Source: Roseobacter sp. SK209-2-6 (GTDB lineage Bacteria; Pseudomonadota; Alphaproteobacteria; Rhodobacterales; Rhodobacteraceae). From it: a stretch of DNA of 64,000 bases. Shown here in pieces: positions 787-7,184 of the stretch. Every line of letters begins with the position of its first letter. Position 1 is the stretch's first letter. A program made the translations under genes and the position numbers. The DNA is taken from assembly GCF_000169455.1 (NCBI RefSeq), contig NZ_AAYC01000005.1, positions 62,001 to 126,000 on the forward strand, given 5' to 3'. The notes under the pieces were generated by a model. The model saw nothing but the letters and a program-made list of their open reading frames with translations. It did no database searches and was not told the DNA's origin.

Positions 787-1794
787 TCACTGACCCGCCA
801 GTTCCTCTTCTTCCATTCCGGAATGGTAGAAACAATGCCTGGATCGTCCAGCGTGTTTCGCCGCATACAGCGCCACATCGGCCTGATGGACCAGATCCGC
901 CGCCTTGAGTGGGTGCTTATTCCAAATGGAAAGCGTGGTCCCAGCACTCGCAGAAATCTTACACAGGTGCCCCCCAAAGGGAACTGGCTCCTCCATCCTC
1001 GCGATTAGGCGATTGGCCAGGGCTTCTAGGACTTTTGGTTGCCTCACATTCTCGAGCAGGATGACAAATTCATCCCCGCCAACACGCGCAACCGTATCGC
1101 TCTGCCGCGTGCATTCGACCATGACTTTGGCGACGTTCTGCAGAACCGCATCCCCTGCTGCATGCCCCAGCGTGTCATTGACCGCCTTGAAGAAATCGAG
1201 ATCTATGTGCATGACCGCAAAATCCGTACCGCGGCTGATCAGGCGACCCAGGATGTGATCCATAGCACGACGATTCTTGAGACCGGTGAGCGTATCTGTA
1301 AAGGCCTGCTCCTCCGCCGCGATTTTCGCGCCTTGGAGCCGTAGATTCAATTGGCGAGAAGCCTCCATAGCGGCCGATTTCGCCTCCACCAGATAGAGCA
1401 TCTCAATGGTGAGATCCGTGGGCGAAAAATCAGCGCTGGTGAGATCATAGTCGCGCACAGCCTCTAGGACCGAGATGCCGAAAGAGAGATTGATCAAAGC
1501 GCCCTGGCCCTCAGGCAGCGGCACAAGAACGCCTTTCAGACTGGTCTGTGGCGCATCCCGAAACTGCAGATGGAGTTTAGCACCCGCTGTCTGGATCAAA
1601 TCCTCGATCGAGCGGGCAGAACGTGGGCGGGAAAGATCAAAGATACGGAAAAACCGCTTTCCCTCCCAGTCCAGATCCGGGCGCAATTTCCGCAGGGTTG
1701 GCCCCACACTTTGCAATCGCCCAGAGGCGTCAACCAAAGCATGCATAGGACAAAGCCCATCCGCAATCGCAGAAAGATCTTGCAAGGAAATCAT
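787..1794 (-). CDS. HNOBA-GGDEF diguanylate cyclase
   Basis: 335 aa. Residues ~10-150 resemble the HNOBA domain that follows H-NOX in soluble guanylate cyclase: a PAS-like fold, L-K-G-V near 87-90, and the L-T-S-A-D-F-S-P-x-D stretch at 118-127 before a helical linker. The C-terminal GGDEF domain has an intact GGDEF at 239-243 and an inhibitory RxxD site (RQSD, 230-233) five residues upstream, so active, product-inhibited c-di-GMP synthesis is expected. Its ATG overlaps the stop of the upstream H-NOX-like gene (ATGA), so the two are almost certainly co-translated partners. In this family H-NOX proteins bind the cyclase and change its activity on ligand binding. No EAL domain is present. Confidence 0.88.
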   Translation of the reverse strand: MISLQDLSAIADGLCPMHALVDASGRLQSVGPTLRKLRPDLDWEGKRFFRIFDLSRPRSARSIEDLIQTAGAKLHLQFRDAPQTSLKGVLVPLPEGQGALINLSFGISVLEAVRDYDLTSADFSPTDLTIEMLYLVEAKSAAMEASRQLNLRLQGAKIAAEEQAFTDTLTGLKNRRAMDHILGRLISRGTDFAVMHIDLDFFKAVNDTLGHAAGDAVLQNVAKVMVECTRQSDTVARVGGDEFVILLENVRQPKVLEALANRLIARMEEPVPFGGHLCKISASAGTTLSIWNKHPLKAADLVHQADVALYAAKHAGRSRHCFYHSGMEEEELAGQ

Positions 1795-2378
1795 AGCGAA
1801 TGCGCCCCTAGATCAAAGGCGCGCCCTTCCGCAAAATCGGATTCAACCAGGGTGATCGAAATCACTTCTGCGTCGCCCTTCTCTCCGCTGTGATCAAGGA
1901 TCACCAGATCCCCATAGTCGTCGCCCATTGCTCGCAGAACACCCATCATAACAGAACCATAGCCAGGCAAGCCTGGCTGACAAATTAGATCAAACTGACC
2001 AGGGGCCTGCTCCACCAGCTCTAACGGCGGCAAATGCAGATCTGCGACCGCCAATCGCGCGCGATCAGGAAGATCATCCAAGGAGTGCAAAAATTCCACA
2101 TAATTTACGCCCCCAAAACGCAGTAGTCGCCTGAGAGCTTCCACCTGCGGGTTGGACACCAAAAATGTCCCAAGGTCTTCTAGAATCTCCGGCAGCGGTC
2201 GTTCCAAGACCCGCTCCATCGCTGCAAGCATCTGCTCGGATTGCTCGTCAGTATAGGTGAGCATGGCCTCGAACTCGGTAAAGCCCAAACCTGCAAGATC
2301 CATAACGGTCACCCACCGCTCTTCCCCGTAGGTACTGGCGACGAATGCCTGAATTGCCCTGTTTATCAGACCATGCAT
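1791..2378 (-). CDS. H-NOX-like protein lacking the heme histidine
   Basis: 195 aa, the usual H-NOX length, opening M-H-G-L-I-N-R-A-I as family members do. Canonical H-NOX binds heme through a histidine in an F-L-x-x-x-D-x-x-H segment and through a Y-x-S-x-R motif about 30 residues later. Here the first segment reads F-L-H-S-L-D-D-L-P, placing Pro104 at the ligand position. The second aligns with Q-P-G-L-P (134-138), so Tyr, Ser and Arg are all replaced. Heme binding in the normal way is therefore unlikely. His98 and His115 are nearby but off register. SD AAGGGG lies 9 nt before the ATG. It is translationally coupled to the HNOBA-GGDEF cyclase downstream, so it probably regulates that enzyme through some other signal or as a structural partner. 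Confidence 0.85.
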   Translation of the reverse strand: MHGLINRAIQAFVASTYGEERWVTVMDLAGLGFTEFEAMLTYTDEQSEQMLAAMERVLERPLPEILEDLGTFLVSNPQVEALRRLLRFGGVNYVEFLHSLDDLPDRARLAVADLHLPPLELVEQAPGQFDLICQPGLPGYGSVMMGVLRAMGDDYGDLVILDHSGEKGDAEVISITLVESDFAEGRAFDLGAHSL

Positions 2379-2558
2379 AAATTGGCCCCTTAGTAAGTCA
2401 CAGACAAGATGGGCGCTGGACAGTTAAAAAATGCCCAACAAATCAAATTTGATAGAGTTTATACACTTCCTGCGTCTAGGCCAACGAGATCTCTCCTTTT
2501 TGTCAGGGCGCTTCTCGCTCGTTTTGCAAGGAGTTGACCCTTTACCAGGCAACCTCAG

Positions 2559-2588
2559 CCTGGGGTTTTCAATTTTGCAAACCCCAGG
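2559..2588. other. Strong 10-bp inverted repeat
   Basis: CCTGGGGTTT (2559-2568) and AAACCCCAGG (2579-2588) are perfect arms around a 10-nt T-rich loop. They sit ~180 bp upstream of the H-NOX-like start and downstream of the mttB-like terminator. This could be an operator or a transcript hairpin. Otherwise the 416-bp gap 2379-2794 holds no convincing gene. Confidence 0.45.
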
Positions 2589-2710
2589 TTTCGTCTGGTC
2601 TATTGGAGAAGGCCGGAATCGGTGTCCCCGTGCCAGGAAAGCACGGCGCCCTGCGACAGATGAGGGTTTGGTTGCGCAGGCAAGAGGCACTGTAGCCCGG
2701 TTCAAATAGG

Positions 2711-2741
2711 AAAAGCGCCCCAGCCTGACTGACTGGGACGC
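2711..2741 (-). terminator. Rho-independent terminator of the mttB-like gene
   Basis: Read on the minus strand, GCGTCCCAG and CTGGGGCGC pair over 9 bp with one U-G wobble around an 8-9 nt loop, and TTTTCC follows. It starts 54 bp after the stop of the methyltransferase gene. The wobble pairs only on the minus strand, which fixes the direction. Confidence 0.75.
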
Positions 2742-2794
2742 ATGAGGTTTCCTACTGGTTAGGAATGCTGGCCGAAGTAGCCTCTAACAAAGGA

Positions 2795-4351
2795 TCAGAA
2801 ATCGGTTGGAGCGCCCCCTTCGGAGATGCGGCGGTCGACAAAGGCCCGCAACTCTTCCTTGATGGCCACGTCCATGGGTGGTTCTTCGTATTCAGCCAGA
2901 ATATCTTTGTAGATCTTGTTCGCACGCTCAACCGTCCAAACTGACCCTGCGCCCTCCCAGGCCTCATAGTTTCTCCAGTCGCTCAGGAAAGGCTGGTAAA
3001 AGGCTGTGGTGTAACGGTCCTGTGTGTGTTGGATGCCAAAGAAATGCCCCTCGTTTCCGACCTCACGGATCGCATCCAGGGCGATCTCATTCGGTCCGGC
3101 GGCACAGACCTCTGGCTGCAGATAGCGCTGAATTTGCTGCAGCACCTCGCAGTCCATAATGAACTTCTCCGGGCTGGCGATCAGCCCCCCTTCAAGCCAA
3201 CCTGCAGCGTGGTAGACCATATTTGTGCCGGACTGCACCGCCGCCCAAAGCGAATTCGAAGTCTCCCACATGGCCTGGCCATCCGGCACATTCGCCGCGC
3301 AGACTCCAGAGGAGCGCATCGGCAGCCCATAGAAGCGCGCCATTTGCCCAGTGATCTGTGTGGCTCGCATGTATTCCGGCGTACCAAAGGCTGGAGCCCC
3401 GGATTTCATATCCACGTTGGAGGTGAATGTACCGATCGCGCAGGGTGTTCCCGGGCGCACATATTGGAACAGGGCAATGGCGCAGAGCGCCTCAGCCAGG
3501 GATTGCGCTACAGCCCCGGCCATCGTGACCGGTGCCATTGCACCCGCCAGGGTAAAGGGTGTGACGACAATCGCCTGCCCCCGCCGGGCCATCCGCAGGC
3601 AGCCATCGATCATCGGATAGTCATGCTTCAGCGGCGAGGTCGAGTTGATATTGGTATAAAGCTTGGGAGAGGCCTCAAACTCCTCATGGCTATGGCCGCC
3701 CGCAATGCGCACCATCTCCATGACGTCCTCAACCCGCTCCTTGCCCAGAGAATAGGCATGCATCGCCTTATCTGTAAGCACCAGCTTGTCATAGCTTGCC
3801 TCCAGGTGGCGGATCGAAGCATGCAGATCCACCGGCTCCACCGGAAAGCCCCCGGCAAAATGAATACAGTTGAAATACTGCGTCAGCCTGACGAGGTTCT
3901 GGAAATACTCCCGAGTTCCGGTCACCTTCTTGCCGAGGTCCAGATCCCAGTAGTTTGGCGGCGAAGAGACATTGCCAAACAGAATATGGTTGCCACCAAT
4001 CGGAATGGTGCGGTCTGGGTTTCGCGGCGTGATGGTAAAGGAACTCGGAGCTTTGCCGATCATTTCCATGACAAACTCGCGATCCATCTTCACCAGATCG
4101 CCTTCGACTTTGCAGCCGGCCTCCTTCAGGATCTCCAAAGCCTCCGGGTTCAGAAAGACGATGCCGATCTCCTCAAGGATGCGCATCGCCCCGTCGTGGA
4201 TCGCCGCCAGGCCCTCTTCCCCCAGGGGTTCAGTCGGGCGATCGGTATTCACCGGGATCGACCAGGGCATCTGGCTGAGAGCAGCGCTGCCCCGACGGGC
4301 TGCTGCGCCAGCTCTGCCACCACCTCGCTTGCTTGCTGCTCTGCGTGCCAT
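2795..4351 (-). CDS. Trimethylamine methyltransferase (MttB) family protein
   Basis: 518 aa. The ATG at 4351 (M-A-R-R-A-A-S-K) has AGGGAG 8 nt upstream; an in-frame start further out lacks this. After a basic, Gly/Ala-rich leader of ~25 residues the whole protein follows the MttB barrel family, which moves a methyl group from a quaternary or tertiary amine to a corrinoid protein. No in-frame stop occurs, so it belongs to the non-pyrrolysine branch that includes glycine betaine, proline betaine and carnitine demethylases. The substrate cannot be read from sequence. No corrinoid protein or methyltransferase partner is adjacent, but corrin synthesis genes lie 36 kb away in this window. It stands alone with its own terminator. 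Confidence 0.85.
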   Translation of the reverse strand: MARRAASKRGGGRAGAAARRGSAALSQMPWSIPVNTDRPTEPLGEEGLAAIHDGAMRILEEIGIVFLNPEALEILKEAGCKVEGDLVKMDREFVMEMIGKAPSSFTITPRNPDRTIPIGGNHILFGNVSSPPNYWDLDLGKKVTGTREYFQNLVRLTQYFNCIHFAGGFPVEPVDLHASIRHLEASYDKLVLTDKAMHAYSLGKERVEDVMEMVRIAGGHSHEEFEASPKLYTNINSTSPLKHDYPMIDGCLRMARRGQAIVVTPFTLAGAMAPVTMAGAVAQSLAEALCAIALFQYVRPGTPCAIGTFTSNVDMKSGAPAFGTPEYMRATQITGQMARFYGLPMRSSGVCAANVPDGQAMWETSNSLWAAVQSGTNMVYHAAGWLEGGLIASPEKFIMDCEVLQQIQRYLQPEVCAAGPNEIALDAIREVGNEGHFFGIQHTQDRYTTAFYQPFLSDWRNYEAWEGAGSVWTVERANKIYKDILAEYEEPPMDVAIKEELRAFVDRRISEGGAPTDF

Positions 4352-4602
4352 GGTTTTCTCCCTGTATTGCCATGCATGCCCTACAGCTGGACCAGTTTTG
4401 ACTATACAGACCTGCCCAATCACGACACCTCTTGTCGTTTTTGGATCAAAGAGCGCCGCAGAACTCTTTTTCTAGACACATGTGCCCAGTTCACCCAAAT
4501 ACCCGCTGGTTAGCCCGCGATTCGAGAGTATCCGCGCGTTTTAGTGAACCAAGCTCGCTTTCTGCCCAGGCGCGAAGGATCCCGGCACAAGTATAGCTGT
4601 CC

Positions 4603-5292
4603 TCAGCGATCCAACCAGGCTGGGAGATGCCCAATATCAGGGAGTACCACATCCGCATGCGGTGCAAGTTCACTTTCCAGAGCCATTCCAGTCAAGACAC
4701 CAATCCGAAGCATCCCAGCCGCCGCTCCGGCTTCCAGGTCGTGGCAGCTATCCCCAACCATAGCGACTTGTTCCGGGGAAAGGCCCGCCGATTTGCTGAA
4801 GGCCAGCAACGGATCAGGGTCAGGTTTCGCCCCATGTCCACTGTCAAATCCAGCAACAAAGGCAAACCGGTCCAGAACACCGGCGGTTTTCAACTGGCTC
4901 ACCGCAGAGCTTTCGGCGTCATTGGTCATCACCCCCAGAACCTTGCCCCGTGCGAGCAGACTGTCGAGCAAAGCCGCCAAAGGTACCGCTTCGCAGAGTT
5001 CCGCTGTTGCAGCACTCTCTGCCAGATAGCGCTCTAGCTCTTCCTGATCCATATGATCGACATGGGGGACCAGGGCCGCAGCCACTTCCCCGTTTGAGCT
5101 GGCAATCACCAGGCTGTCCGGGTTAAAGGCACGCTTCTCCAGATCATAGCTGATCACCTCAGCCATCGCCTGTAGGCGGCTCGCATCCCCCTGAGAGAGT
5201 TCCGCCAGAACCTCTGCAGCCCAGCCATTCCAGGTGGCTGCAAATTCAAACAGCGTTCCGTCCTTATCAAAGAGAAATGCTTCGACTGGCAT
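4603..5292 (-). CDS. HAD-family hydrolase, phosphoglycolate phosphatase-like
   Basis: 229 aa. Haloacid dehalogenase fold with the nucleophile motif D9-x-D11-G-T near the N-terminus, a helical cap at ~20-90, motif II as T-N-D (V-M-T-N-D), a lysine in G-A-K-P-D-P and the Mg-binding G-D-S-x-x-D. This is the arrangement of subfamily IA phosphatases such as Gph. These proteins dephosphorylate small metabolites, with 2-phosphoglycolate as the usual guess; the exact substrate is not evident. The gene is monocistronic. The 251 bp between it and the mttB-like start hold no gene. Confidence 0.85.
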   Translation of the reverse strand: MPVEAFLFDKDGTLFEFAATWNGWAAEVLAELSQGDASRLQAMAEVISYDLEKRAFNPDSLVIASSNGEVAAALVPHVDHMDQEELERYLAESAATAELCEAVPLAALLDSLLARGKVLGVMTNDAESSAVSQLKTAGVLDRFAFVAGFDSGHGAKPDPDPLLAFSKSAGLSPEQVAMVGDSCHDLEAGAAAGMLRIGVLTGMALESELAPHADVVLPDIGHLPAWLDR

Positions 5293-5384
5293 GATGGTGT
5301 CCTTCAGAGTTCGCGTCCGACATGGGACCCTAGAGGCAAAAACGGCTCAGGCAAGCGATTCTTGAATGGTGATTTAATTTTCTA

Positions 5385-5669
5385 TCAGGTCCAGTGCATC
5401 TGAGACTTGCCCTGCAAGATCATTTTTGCAGTCAGGGGGAGTTCATATTTCATGCCCTGCGAATCGCAAAACTGCATGACCCAGGCATCGTCCATCGTTA
5501 AGAAATCGAGCACCGATCCCAAAAAGTCGGAATCCCCAGCGCGAAGGCGAAGATCCTCCGCGCCGATGCCGGTAGATCCCATAAACACTTGAACCAGCTC
5601 ATCATTTCCCATCAGCCAGGTCAAAACCTTCAGGCCGATGGTTTCTGCTTCTTCCATGCTCAGCTGCAT
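5385..5669 (-). CDS. DUF3572 family protein
   Basis: 94 aa from the ATG at 5669, chosen because AGGAAGG lies 9 nt upstream. It begins M-Q-L-S-M-E-E-A-E-T-I-G-L-K-V-L-T-W-L and contains F-L-G-S-V-L-D-F-L-T-M-D-D-A-W-V, both typical of DUF3572. This small soluble family is found in alphaproteobacteria, often beside pleD-like genes as here (the cyclase starts 115 bp away, divergently). No catalytic residues are recognisable and the function is unknown. Confidence 0.8.
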   Translation of the reverse strand: MQLSMEEAETIGLKVLTWLMGNDELVQVFMGSTGIGAEDLRLRAGDSDFLGSVLDFLTMDDAWVMQFCDSQGMKYELPLTAKMILQGKSQMHWT

Positions 5670-5783
5670 AATCGGCACCTTCCTGCCATTTTGTCGACAA
5701 TTTGGTGAAAACACGAAACAGTTTATTAACCAGACTCACTGAAACTTCCAAGCAGAAGCAATCAAGTTTGGAAAGGCTTCCAG

Positions 5784-7184
5784 GTGCAGGGAACGGTGTT
5801 GGTCATAGATGGTGTCGCCACCAACCGCATTATGCTGAAGGTTCAGCTGACCGAGGCATTCTATAGCGTCGAACAGGCCAGTTCGGTGGGTGAAGTACTG
5901 TCCGCCGCACGCAGATCCCGCCCCGATCTGGTCCTGACAGCCATGACCCTGCCGGATGGAGATGCCGCAGCGGTAAAGCAGGCTCTGCGGCAGGATGAAA
6001 TGCTCGCCAATGTCCCGGTCATTGCTGTATCGCACTCGAATGCCCCCGAGCGCCGCCTCAAGGCTCTGTCGGCGGGGATCGACGACGTACTGCCCCAGCC
6101 GGTGGATGATGTCATCCTGCAGGCCCGAATTCGCAGCCTCTTGCGGGCGCGCAGTGCAGACGAGGATCTGCACCTTCAGCGTGATGCATCACATGGGTTT
6201 GTCCTGCCTCTGTCCGACCGCGCCGGACGCAGTGACATTTTCGGTGCCACAGTCGCGCTGATTGCAGAAGACCCCGAAACAGCTGCCAAATGGCAAGAAA
6301 GCCTCTCGCAGCAGGTTCCCTGCTCTGTGCTCTGCCACCAGCTTGGGGACATAAAGCCGCTGATGCAGGACCCCGTAGCCGACGTCTTTGTCATCGAGTT
6401 GAATGAAGCCTCCGCCGGACCAGGGCTGCGTCTCTTGGCGGATCTCAGGGCCAGAGCGGCGACGCGCCAGTCCGTCATTATCGCCATTCCCAACCCTGCG
6501 GATCCGCATATCGCCGCAGAGGCGCTGGATCGTGGCGCGCATGACGTATTGCAGGCCGGGTTTGATGTCGAGGAACTGGCTCTGCGGCTCACCACGCAGC
6601 TGCATTACAAGACCCGCAATGATCAACTGCGCGCCAGCGTGCGAAACGGATTGCGGGCGGCTGTGCAGGACCCGATGACGGGCCTTTACAATCGCCGCTA
6701 TGCCAAACCATTCCTTGATCGAACCGCCAAGCGCGCTGCCGAGAATGGTAGCAACTACGCCTTGATGCTGGCTGATCTGGACCATTTCAAGCGCATCAAT
6801 GACAGCTACGGCCACCCCGTGGGCGATGCGGTTCTGATTGAGGCCGCAAAGCGCCTACAGGCGGAGCTTCGTCCGGTTGATCTATTGGCGCGCGTTGGCG
6901 GCGAGGAGTTCATGATTGTCCTGCCCGGCGCGGATGAGATTGAAGCAGGCGTTGCAGCGGTTGATCTGTGCAATGCAATCAACAGCCGCCCCTTCCATAT
7001 CGATGGAATTCGCGAACCGGTCGAGGTGACGATCAGCATCGGCGCAGTGATCGGGCGCGGCAACGATGATGCCACCCAAAGCGTCAATGATCTTATCAGC
7101 GCTGCAGATCGCGCACTTTATGACGCAAAAAACGCCGGCCGCAACCAGGTGACCATGGGGAAAAAGGGCACTGCCGCCGCTTAA
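5784..7184 (+). CDS. pleD: PleD-like diguanylate cyclase with degenerate receiver domains
   Basis: 466 aa from a GTG start (SD GGAAAGG). The domain order is as in PleD: receiver 1 (~3-122), receiver-like 2 (~155-272) and GGDEF (~290-460). The output domain is intact, with GGEEF at 372-376 and the inhibitory RxxD (RPVD, 363-366). The first receiver has Asp9 but Gly10 instead of the second acidic residue, and Ala53 at the phosphoacceptor position (L-T-A-M where PleD has L-L-D-V). The second receiver also lacks an acceptor. Classical phosphorylation-driven dimerisation is therefore not expected. Activity may be constitutive or controlled by another partner. No histidine kinase is adjacent. Confidence 0.9.
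   Translation: MQGTVLVIDGVATNRIMLKVQLTEAFYSVEQASSVGEVLSAARRSRPDLVLTAMTLPDGDAAAVKQALRQDEMLANVPVIAVSHSNAPERRLKALSAGIDDVLPQPVDDVILQARIRSLLRARSADEDLHLQRDASHGFVLPLSDRAGRSDIFGATVALIAEDPETAAKWQESLSQQVPCSVLCHQLGDIKPLMQDPVADVFVIELNEASAGPGLRLLADLRARAATRQSVIIAIPNPADPHIAAEALDRGAHDVLQAGFDVEELALRLTTQLHYKTRNDQLRASVRNGLRAAVQDPMTGLYNRRYAKPFLDRTAKRAAENGSNYALMLADLDHFKRINDSYGHPVGDAVLIEAAKRLQAELRPVDLLARVGGEEFMIVLPGADEIEAGVAAVDLCNAINSRPFHIDGIREPVEVTISIGAVIGRGNDDATQSVNDLISAADRALYDAKNAGRNQVTMGKKGTAAA

Follow-up and report, generated by a model that had tools for sequence, protein, structure and literature searches.

An H-NOX-like protein with proline at the heme-ligand position, paired with a diguanylate cyclase in Roseobacter sp. 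SK209-2-6 and most of its examined relatives

The H-NOX/cyclase gene pair

We analysed a 64,000-nucleotide stretch of the Roseobacter sp. SK209-2-6 genome (NZ_AAYC01000005.1, positions 62,001 to 126,000; hereafter the window), in which a gene for an H-NOX-like (HNOB) protein adjoins a gene for a diguanylate cyclase. The H-NOX-like gene (positions 1791-2378 of the window; minus strand, as are all features of the pair given below) starts with ATG and encodes 195 amino acids (aa) with a proline at the heme-ligand position. The cyclase gene (787-1794) encodes 335 aa, and its ATG overlaps the stop codon of the H-NOX gene (ATGA).

The H-NOX-like protein matched the HNOB profile PF07700 with 70.3 bits (cut-off 25.5), and its nearest solved relative by sequence is Alr2278 of Nostoc (E 1e-16). 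Profile and fold place it in the H-NOX (HNOB) family, and the fold assigned in the initial annotation was confirmed by the HNOB profile, by Alr2278 and by a profile-profile alignment. It is the only HNOB protein encoded in its own genome. A search of this genome for other nitric oxide (NO) genes revealed two NnrS, no FIST and no NO synthase.

The GGDEF domain of the cyclase (residues 164-319; 838-1305) matched PF00990 with 148.2 bits and contains the GGDEF motif (residues 239-243; 1066-1080) and an RxxD inhibitory site (1096-1107). Residues 11-82 (1549-1764) correspond to the PAS-like HNOBA domain, with a match to PF07701 that lies above the cut-off (27.1 against 23.4 bits) yet is weak. The N-terminal part of a profile built from 25 cyclase orthologues matched residues 210-375 of the beta-1 subunit of soluble guanylate cyclase (sGC; E 7e-4) and PDB 2p04 (E 1.1e-4), which we take to be the Nostoc H-NOXA domain. 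With an intact GGDEF motif, the RxxD site and an HNOBA/PAS N-terminus, the partner has the features of a diguanylate cyclase with HNOBA input; the initial annotation had likewise described the operon partner as a cyclase, and its motifs are intact. Because the cyclase N-terminus resembles 2p04 and sGC beta-1 and the genes adjoin, the pair is arranged like a split sGC, with the H-NOX on one chain and PAS, coiled coil and cyclase on the next, the cyclase being of the cyclic di-GMP (c-di-GMP) type.

Residues at the heme-contact positions

In the alignment with Alr2278, the Nostoc histidine (..ENLDNLHAR..) stands opposite Pro104 (..HSLDDLPDR..), and the alignment around it is free of gaps. The profile-profile alignment, made against five canonical H-NOX proteins (probability 99.9, ungapped over residues 1-165), gave the same register, which is also backed by 20 orthologues with a histidine in the same motif (e.g. 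LHDRARLA). Both alignments assign codon 104 (CCT, Pro; 2067-2069) to the proximal-His position and codons 133 (TGT, Cys; 1980-1982), 135 (Pro; 1974-1976) and 137 (Leu; 1968-1970) to the Tyr, Ser and Arg positions of the Y-x-S-x-R motif. The initial annotation had recognised Pro104 correctly; it had placed the Tyr, Ser and Arg positions at Gln134, Gly136 and Pro138, which is wrong, as the one-residue offset used at the His was dropped beyond it. Its statement that all four key heme-contact residues are changed stands despite the corrected positions. Both alignments led us to reject an alternative ligand at the proximal-His position. His98 (codon 98, 2085-2087), which had been considered as a possible ligand, lies in a column occupied by non-ligand residues (E, K, N, D, R or A) in canonical H-NOX.

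Compared with heme-based H-NOX gas sensors, the window protein therefore lacks the proximal His (Pro104) and the propionate motif Y-x-S-x-R (C133, P135, L137), and retains the conserved proline (Pro117) and two glycines (Gly70 and Gly146). It has the features of a pseudo-H-NOX, namely an H-NOX fold without ligand residues and with PAS and cyclase domains adjoining. PMC7108781 counts a pair of conserved hinge glycines and a conserved proline at the heme among the parts that transmit the signal. Gly70 (2169-2171) and Gly146 (1941-1943) presumably represent these two subdomain hinges, and Pro117 (2028-2030) the heme-distorting proline.

Conservation across the family

The survey covered 394 genomes, about one per genus, from the GTDB family to which the window belongs (taken as Rhodobacteraceae). 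Matches to PF07700 were found in 296 of them, and matches to a profile of 32 orthologues in 287. Loci were taken for most of the matching genomes, and 323 open reading frames were classed as orthologous, 312 of them full length and some representing pieces of one broken gene. The final alignment of 252 rows excludes other members of the window's genus, 43 named loci and identical rows; two rows share one genome.

Residue 104 is Pro in 183 of these orthologues, His in 20 and another residue in 49 (Arg 11, Gln 10, Ala 6, Asn 5, Ser 5, Gly 4, Glu 3, Thr 2, and Asp, Lys and Tyr 1 each), so that 232/252 are without His104. The Y-x-S-x-R motif is kept in none. Directly downstream on the same strand, 240 of the 252 loci have a cyclase homologue; among the 12 others, two had less than 150 bases of room. 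Alignment of the partner cyclases showed an intact GGDEF motif in 239/240, with RxxD in 236 of these, in all three residue-104 classes. Pro104 is thus not a one-off: the heme-ligand His is lost in the window bacterium and in most of the relatives examined. In the class Alphaproteobacteria, the family profile had matches in ten of 385 genomes. Five of the ten lie outside the family and match weakly; the four of these five that were read are all canonical.

For comparison we used 31 canonical rows, representing 28 distinct genes (L002 and L003 each occur twice, and L354 is the locus of L074), all of which carry the His, Tyr and Ser. Gly70, Gly146 and Pro117 are invariant in the 252 orthologues and the 31 canonical rows, and Trp22 and Arg87 are likewise present in 252/252 orthologues. 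Charged residues specific to the family (E67 D68, R83 R84 R87 and D153 D154) are unconserved in the canonical rows. Codon 2 (2373-2375) encodes a His that is found in 233/252 orthologues and in 0/31 canonical rows, and hydrophobic positions of the pocket region remain hydrophobic in the family. Given the retained Gly70, Gly146, Pro117, family charges and His2, the docking and moving parts of the protein appear to be kept and the heme-holding parts to be gone.

The loss of the His itself has been reported for two species, as PMC5588039 describes the H-NOX proteins of Paracoccus denitrificans and Rhodobacter sphaeroides as devoid of the axial His. Searches of an open-access library gave no description of the pattern in the family as a whole (its extent, the maintained Pro, His2 and the His104 exceptions).

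Selection on Pro104

The close relatives comprise 42 sequences with three identical pairs, i.e. 39 distinct sequences including that of the window. Pro104 is invariant in all 39, which answers the question raised in the initial annotation of whether the Pro is conserved in the lineage and argues against its presence by chance. All four Pro codons are used at this position (17, 8, 8 and 6 times), and the median dN/dS was 0.054 (100 pairs with 0.1<dS<1.2). Invariance with all four codons and a dN/dS of about 0.05 indicate that Pro104 is under purifying selection in the window's clade. His2, His98 and Cys133, the last being the single Cys of the whole protein, are the only His and Cys residues of the window protein that are invariant in this set.

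History of residue 104

A FastTree phylogeny was built from the H-NOX and cyclase sequences of the 252 rows and seven canonical outgroup rows (all His), with residues 104, 133, 135 and 137 excluded. The orthologues form one clade (support 99), in which at least 13 changes between His and non-His are needed (mean 20.4 and minimum 17 in 100 shuffles). A reversible site model fitted this tree better than irreversible loss (lnL, log likelihood, -56.5 vs -75.4); under strict irreversibility, 43 losses would be required. On an IQ-TREE subset of 70 rows (the 20 His rows, 43 of the 232 non-His rows chosen at random and the seven outgroup rows) a single ancient loss was rejected (lnL 84.3 worse, p-AU 0.0165). 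Since deep branches are partly weak, gain and loss of His104 are not cleanly separable.

After masking residue 104, we saw no greater similarity to canonical H-NOX in His104 than in Pro104 members (medians of 58.0 and 55.4 bits, p 0.33), and 10 of the 20 His104 members outscore their nearest non-His relatives in this comparison. An association of His104 with Trp135 (9/20 vs 20/232, Fisher p 7e-5), Ser8 and other residues was not significant in phylogenetically independent pairs. A single base change can turn a Pro codon into one for His, Arg, Gln, Ala, Ser or Thr. Given this short distance, and since the rest of the His104 proteins is no closer to the canonical type, part of the His104 occurrences may be drift. 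The report that the orthologue of Dinoroseobacter shibae senses NO (PMC7232146, PMC8846402) suggests that His104 can be functional.

H-NOX proteins outside the family

As a control, 67 loci (66 distinct genes) of other Proteobacteria were taken from a search of 398 genomes of the phylum. This choice was non-random (27 best-scoring, 20 mostly of low score and 20 mostly of 420-460 aa), and its fractions are not population estimates: the proximal His is kept in 41/67 and absent in 26/67, Y-x-S-x-R is kept in 23 of the 26 His-less rows, and His2, by alignment column, occurs in 18/26 His-less and 6/41 His-bearing rows. We scanned ten His-less proteins of 417-424 aa (L414, L417, L418, L420, L422, L423, L425, L426, L427 and L429). 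All contain HNOB, and nine have a C-terminal PilZ domain, a c-di-GMP receptor, above the Pfam cut-off (23.0-30.0 bits; 16.5 bits in the tenth). Two further proteins of about 420 aa keep the His and match PilZ with 35.1 (L413) and 31.0 bits (L419); L431 has Gln at the proximal position and, with 20.6 bits, falls short of the PilZ cut-off (22.5). As His-less fusions of HNOB with PilZ that mostly keep Y-x-S-x-R, these proteins appear to be a second H-NOX class that loses the proximal His, likewise tied to c-di-GMP and with the propionate motif kept.

Relation to known systems

The initial annotation proposed that the protein would be a new kind of H-NOX switch. This is not supported, since loss of the His is in print (PMC5588039) and the pseudo-H-NOX of sGC alpha is known (PMC8196705). 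Among the closest described cases is the orthologous pair of P. denitrificans (H-NOX Pden_3719 and DgcA Pden_3720), which also has overlapping genes and no heme-ligand His (PMC5588039). The P. denitrificans H-NOX, in contrast, shares about 37% identity with the window protein and has no His98, and its cyclase has no HNOBA match at E 0.001. The orthologue from strain HAMBI_2443 (NZ_CP141053.1) carries Pro104 and the conserved set. According to PMC5588039, a P. denitrificans hnoX mutant underproduces biofilm and a mutant without both dgc genes overproduces it, which is taken there to suggest that H-NOX inhibits DgcA; an NO input is also proposed. Metabolic effects of the hnox deletion are reported in PMC12582929.

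In D. shibae the orthologous operon encodes H-NOX and Dgc1 (Dshi_2815 and its neighbour), and the NO-bound H-NOX is reported to inhibit Dgc1 (PMC7232146, PMC8846402). The presumed D. shibae orthologue in our set (G070/L102, identity inferred) differs from the window protein in having His104 and no His98. Like the rest of the family it has no Y-x-S-x-R, though it is reported as a heme/NO sensor, and HNOBA was detected by Pfam in its cyclase (31.6 bits).

The pseudo-H-NOX of sGC alpha is a heme-free H-NOX fold beside PAS and cyclase domains, in which the His (human) or Y-x-S-x-R (moth) is gone (PMC8196705). It differs in being part of a fused animal chain with a heme-excluding N-terminal extension, which is absent from the window protein. 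Legionella Hnox1 and SwH-NOX of Shewanella woodyi also are stand-alone H-NOX proteins acting on a c-di-GMP enzyme, a diguanylate cyclase or a diguanylate cyclase-phosphodiesterase; they are listed as heme NO sensors in PMC8846402, and neither is among the 31 canonical rows. Signalling independent of heme is known from the redox switch of Vibrio cholerae H-NOX, which uses Cys/Zn and disulfides (PMC7108781, PMC8738867). The window protein, with Cys133 as its single Cys, lacks the three-Cys zinc site and is therefore unlikely to operate a zinc/disulfide switch of the V. cholerae type inside its own chain. The proximal His is called absolutely conserved in PMC8738867 and, among 598 V. cholerae-like H-NOX proteins, in PMC7108781; the proteins surveyed here evidently lie outside that set.

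Interpretation

We lean, with little more than even confidence, towards the view that the window protein is a pseudo-H-NOX, i.e. a heme-independent regulatory subunit that restrains the adjoining HNOBA-GGDEF cyclase. This view is based on the loss of the His and Y-x-S-x-R, the retained Gly70, Gly146, Pro117 and charged set, the operon, the intact cyclase with its sGC-like PAS domain, and the purifying selection on Pro104. The H-NOX fold would be kept as a protein-protein subunit of the cyclase without canonically ligated heme, and might bind the cyclase via the face of helix F and alpha A-C, as other H-NOX proteins do with their kinases. With no Fe-His bond to break, the protein would rest near the His-released ('NO-on') conformation and so restrain c-di-GMP synthesis by default. 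The level of restraint would be set by operon expression, which is CtrA-dependent in relatives, or by another input rather than by NO at a His-ligated heme. A subunit that works without heme and is probably inhibitory is favoured by the combination of the P. denitrificans data, the lowered expression of hnox and its dgc when the CtrA phosphorelay is mutated in Phaeobacter inhibens and D. shibae (PMC12363192), and the H105C exchange in human sGC beta, by which the heme is lost and the enzyme becomes activated-like (PMC8196705).

Several observations weigh against this interpretation. The conformational argument is weak: our model fits activated better than inactive sGC in three matched pairs (21.7 vs 20.4, 20.8 vs 19.8 and 17.5 vs 16.3), but by margins near 1 Z unit, and the opposite holds for a fourth pair (compact 9oxn 19.2 vs extended 9p2r 12.7). 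For two cyclases, those of P. denitrificans and L110, Pfam detected no HNOBA at E 0.001. No match to the orthologue profile was present in 107/394 genomes, which indicates that the operon is dispensable, and broken H-NOX copies occur in relatives (L030, L072, L073 and L198; G231 and G211 with one internal stop each). In PMC5588039, NO is proposed to act through the P. denitrificans H-NOX even without its His, for which some NO sensing would be needed; c-di-GMP is below detection in this species according to PMC12582929, so that the mechanism is unproved. Finally, reviews describe the D. shibae orthologue, which carries His104, as heme- and NO-responsive. The broken copies, with split frames or an internal stop, include those of Pseudophaeobacter leonis and of one genome of the window's own genus.

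Tentatively, we also consider that the H-NOX/cyclase switch was rewired throughout the family away from a His-ligated heme, with His2 as new ligand or with the protein as a constitutive 'NO-on' inhibitor of the cyclase, and with His104 later drifting in and out. If so, His104 members such as D. shibae, few in number, would be exceptional rather than representative of the family.

A ligand switch, in which heme or a bare metal is held by another residue and the protein serves as an unusual gas or redox sensor, seems unlikely to us. The best candidate is His2 at the start of helix A, given its absence from the canonical rows, where Lys or Tyr predominates. By helix periodicity, residue 2 shares a face with residues 5 and 9, which we take to be distal-pocket positions. 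The hydrophobic pocket region, the invariance of His2, His98 and Cys133 in the 39 close sequences and the excess of His2 among the His-less control rows, often H-NOX-PilZ fusions, are consistent with such a switch. However, His2 is equally frequent in His104 (18/20) and Pro104 (169/183) members and thus does not track the loss of His104; fusions with a proximal His also show it (e.g. L413, L419 and L424), so that it is possibly a class trait in these non-randomly chosen rows. The propionate-binding triad is gone in all 252 orthologues, and the placement of residue 2 near the heme is presumed. Cys133 (140/252) and His98 (150/252) are unconserved in the family and were rejected as family-wide substitute ligands.

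Even less probable is that the emptied pocket takes a different hydrophobic or tetrapyrrole-like molecule and that the H-NOX acts as small-molecule sensor for the cyclase. There is no candidate ligand and, beyond His2, no conserved polar specificity residue, and hydrophobic cores are conserved for folding alone. We regard it as quite improbable that the protein is an ordinary sensor which holds heme without or with a weak protein ligand and senses NO as in D. shibae. The listing of the D. shibae orthologue as a heme NO sensor inhibiting Dgc1 although it also lacks Y-x-S-x-R, and the stimulation of P. denitrificans biofilm by NO (PMC5588039), would fit, but the former retains His104, the H105C exchange abolishes heme in sGC beta (PMC8196705), and residue 104 is a Pro under purifying selection. 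A decaying gene without function, to which the broken copies and the genomes lacking the gene could point, is highly improbable in view of the low dN/dS, which speaks against relaxed selection in the window's clade, the full-length orthologues, the kept operon and the phenotype of the P. denitrificans hnoX mutant (PMC5588039).

Genes of this kind are annotated as 'heme NO-binding' (e.g. in Phaeobacter sp. G2), and they are used in arguing that NO controls biofilm and motility in marine and denitrifying bacteria. Should most members be unable to ligate heme in the known way, this argument would not hold for the bulk of the family, and D. shibae would be unsafe as a model. The natural His/Pro pairs in one operon context offer a direct test of H-NOX function without heme.

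Genomic context

Upstream of the H-NOX gene lies an element, TTGTTGGGCATTTTTTAAC (2423-2441, minus strand), a possible promoter or CtrA half-site whose position is conserved among relatives. The TTGTTGGGC..TTAAC element is located about 45 bases before the H-NOX start, and TTAA is present in 14/14 upstream regions hand-picked among 42. The element is possibly compatible with CtrA control.

The protein encoded further upstream (2795-4423) is MttB-like (trimethylamine methyltransferase family; PF06253, 739.7 bits), with a score of 271 for TIGR02369 (trimethylamine Co-methyltransferase), under the cut-off of 525. A second diguanylate cyclase (receiver-GGDEF; 5784-7184, plus strand) is encoded at a distance of about 4 kb. 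The block cyclase-DUF3572-HAD-MttB-H-NOX-cyclase (787-7184) recurs on a plasmid of 120 kb in Phaeobacter sp. G2 (CP104104.1) and may therefore have moved between replicons. The window also contains two tandem tRNA-Glu (TTC) genes (208-282 and 452-526), which are alike by eye and have repeated 5' flanks.
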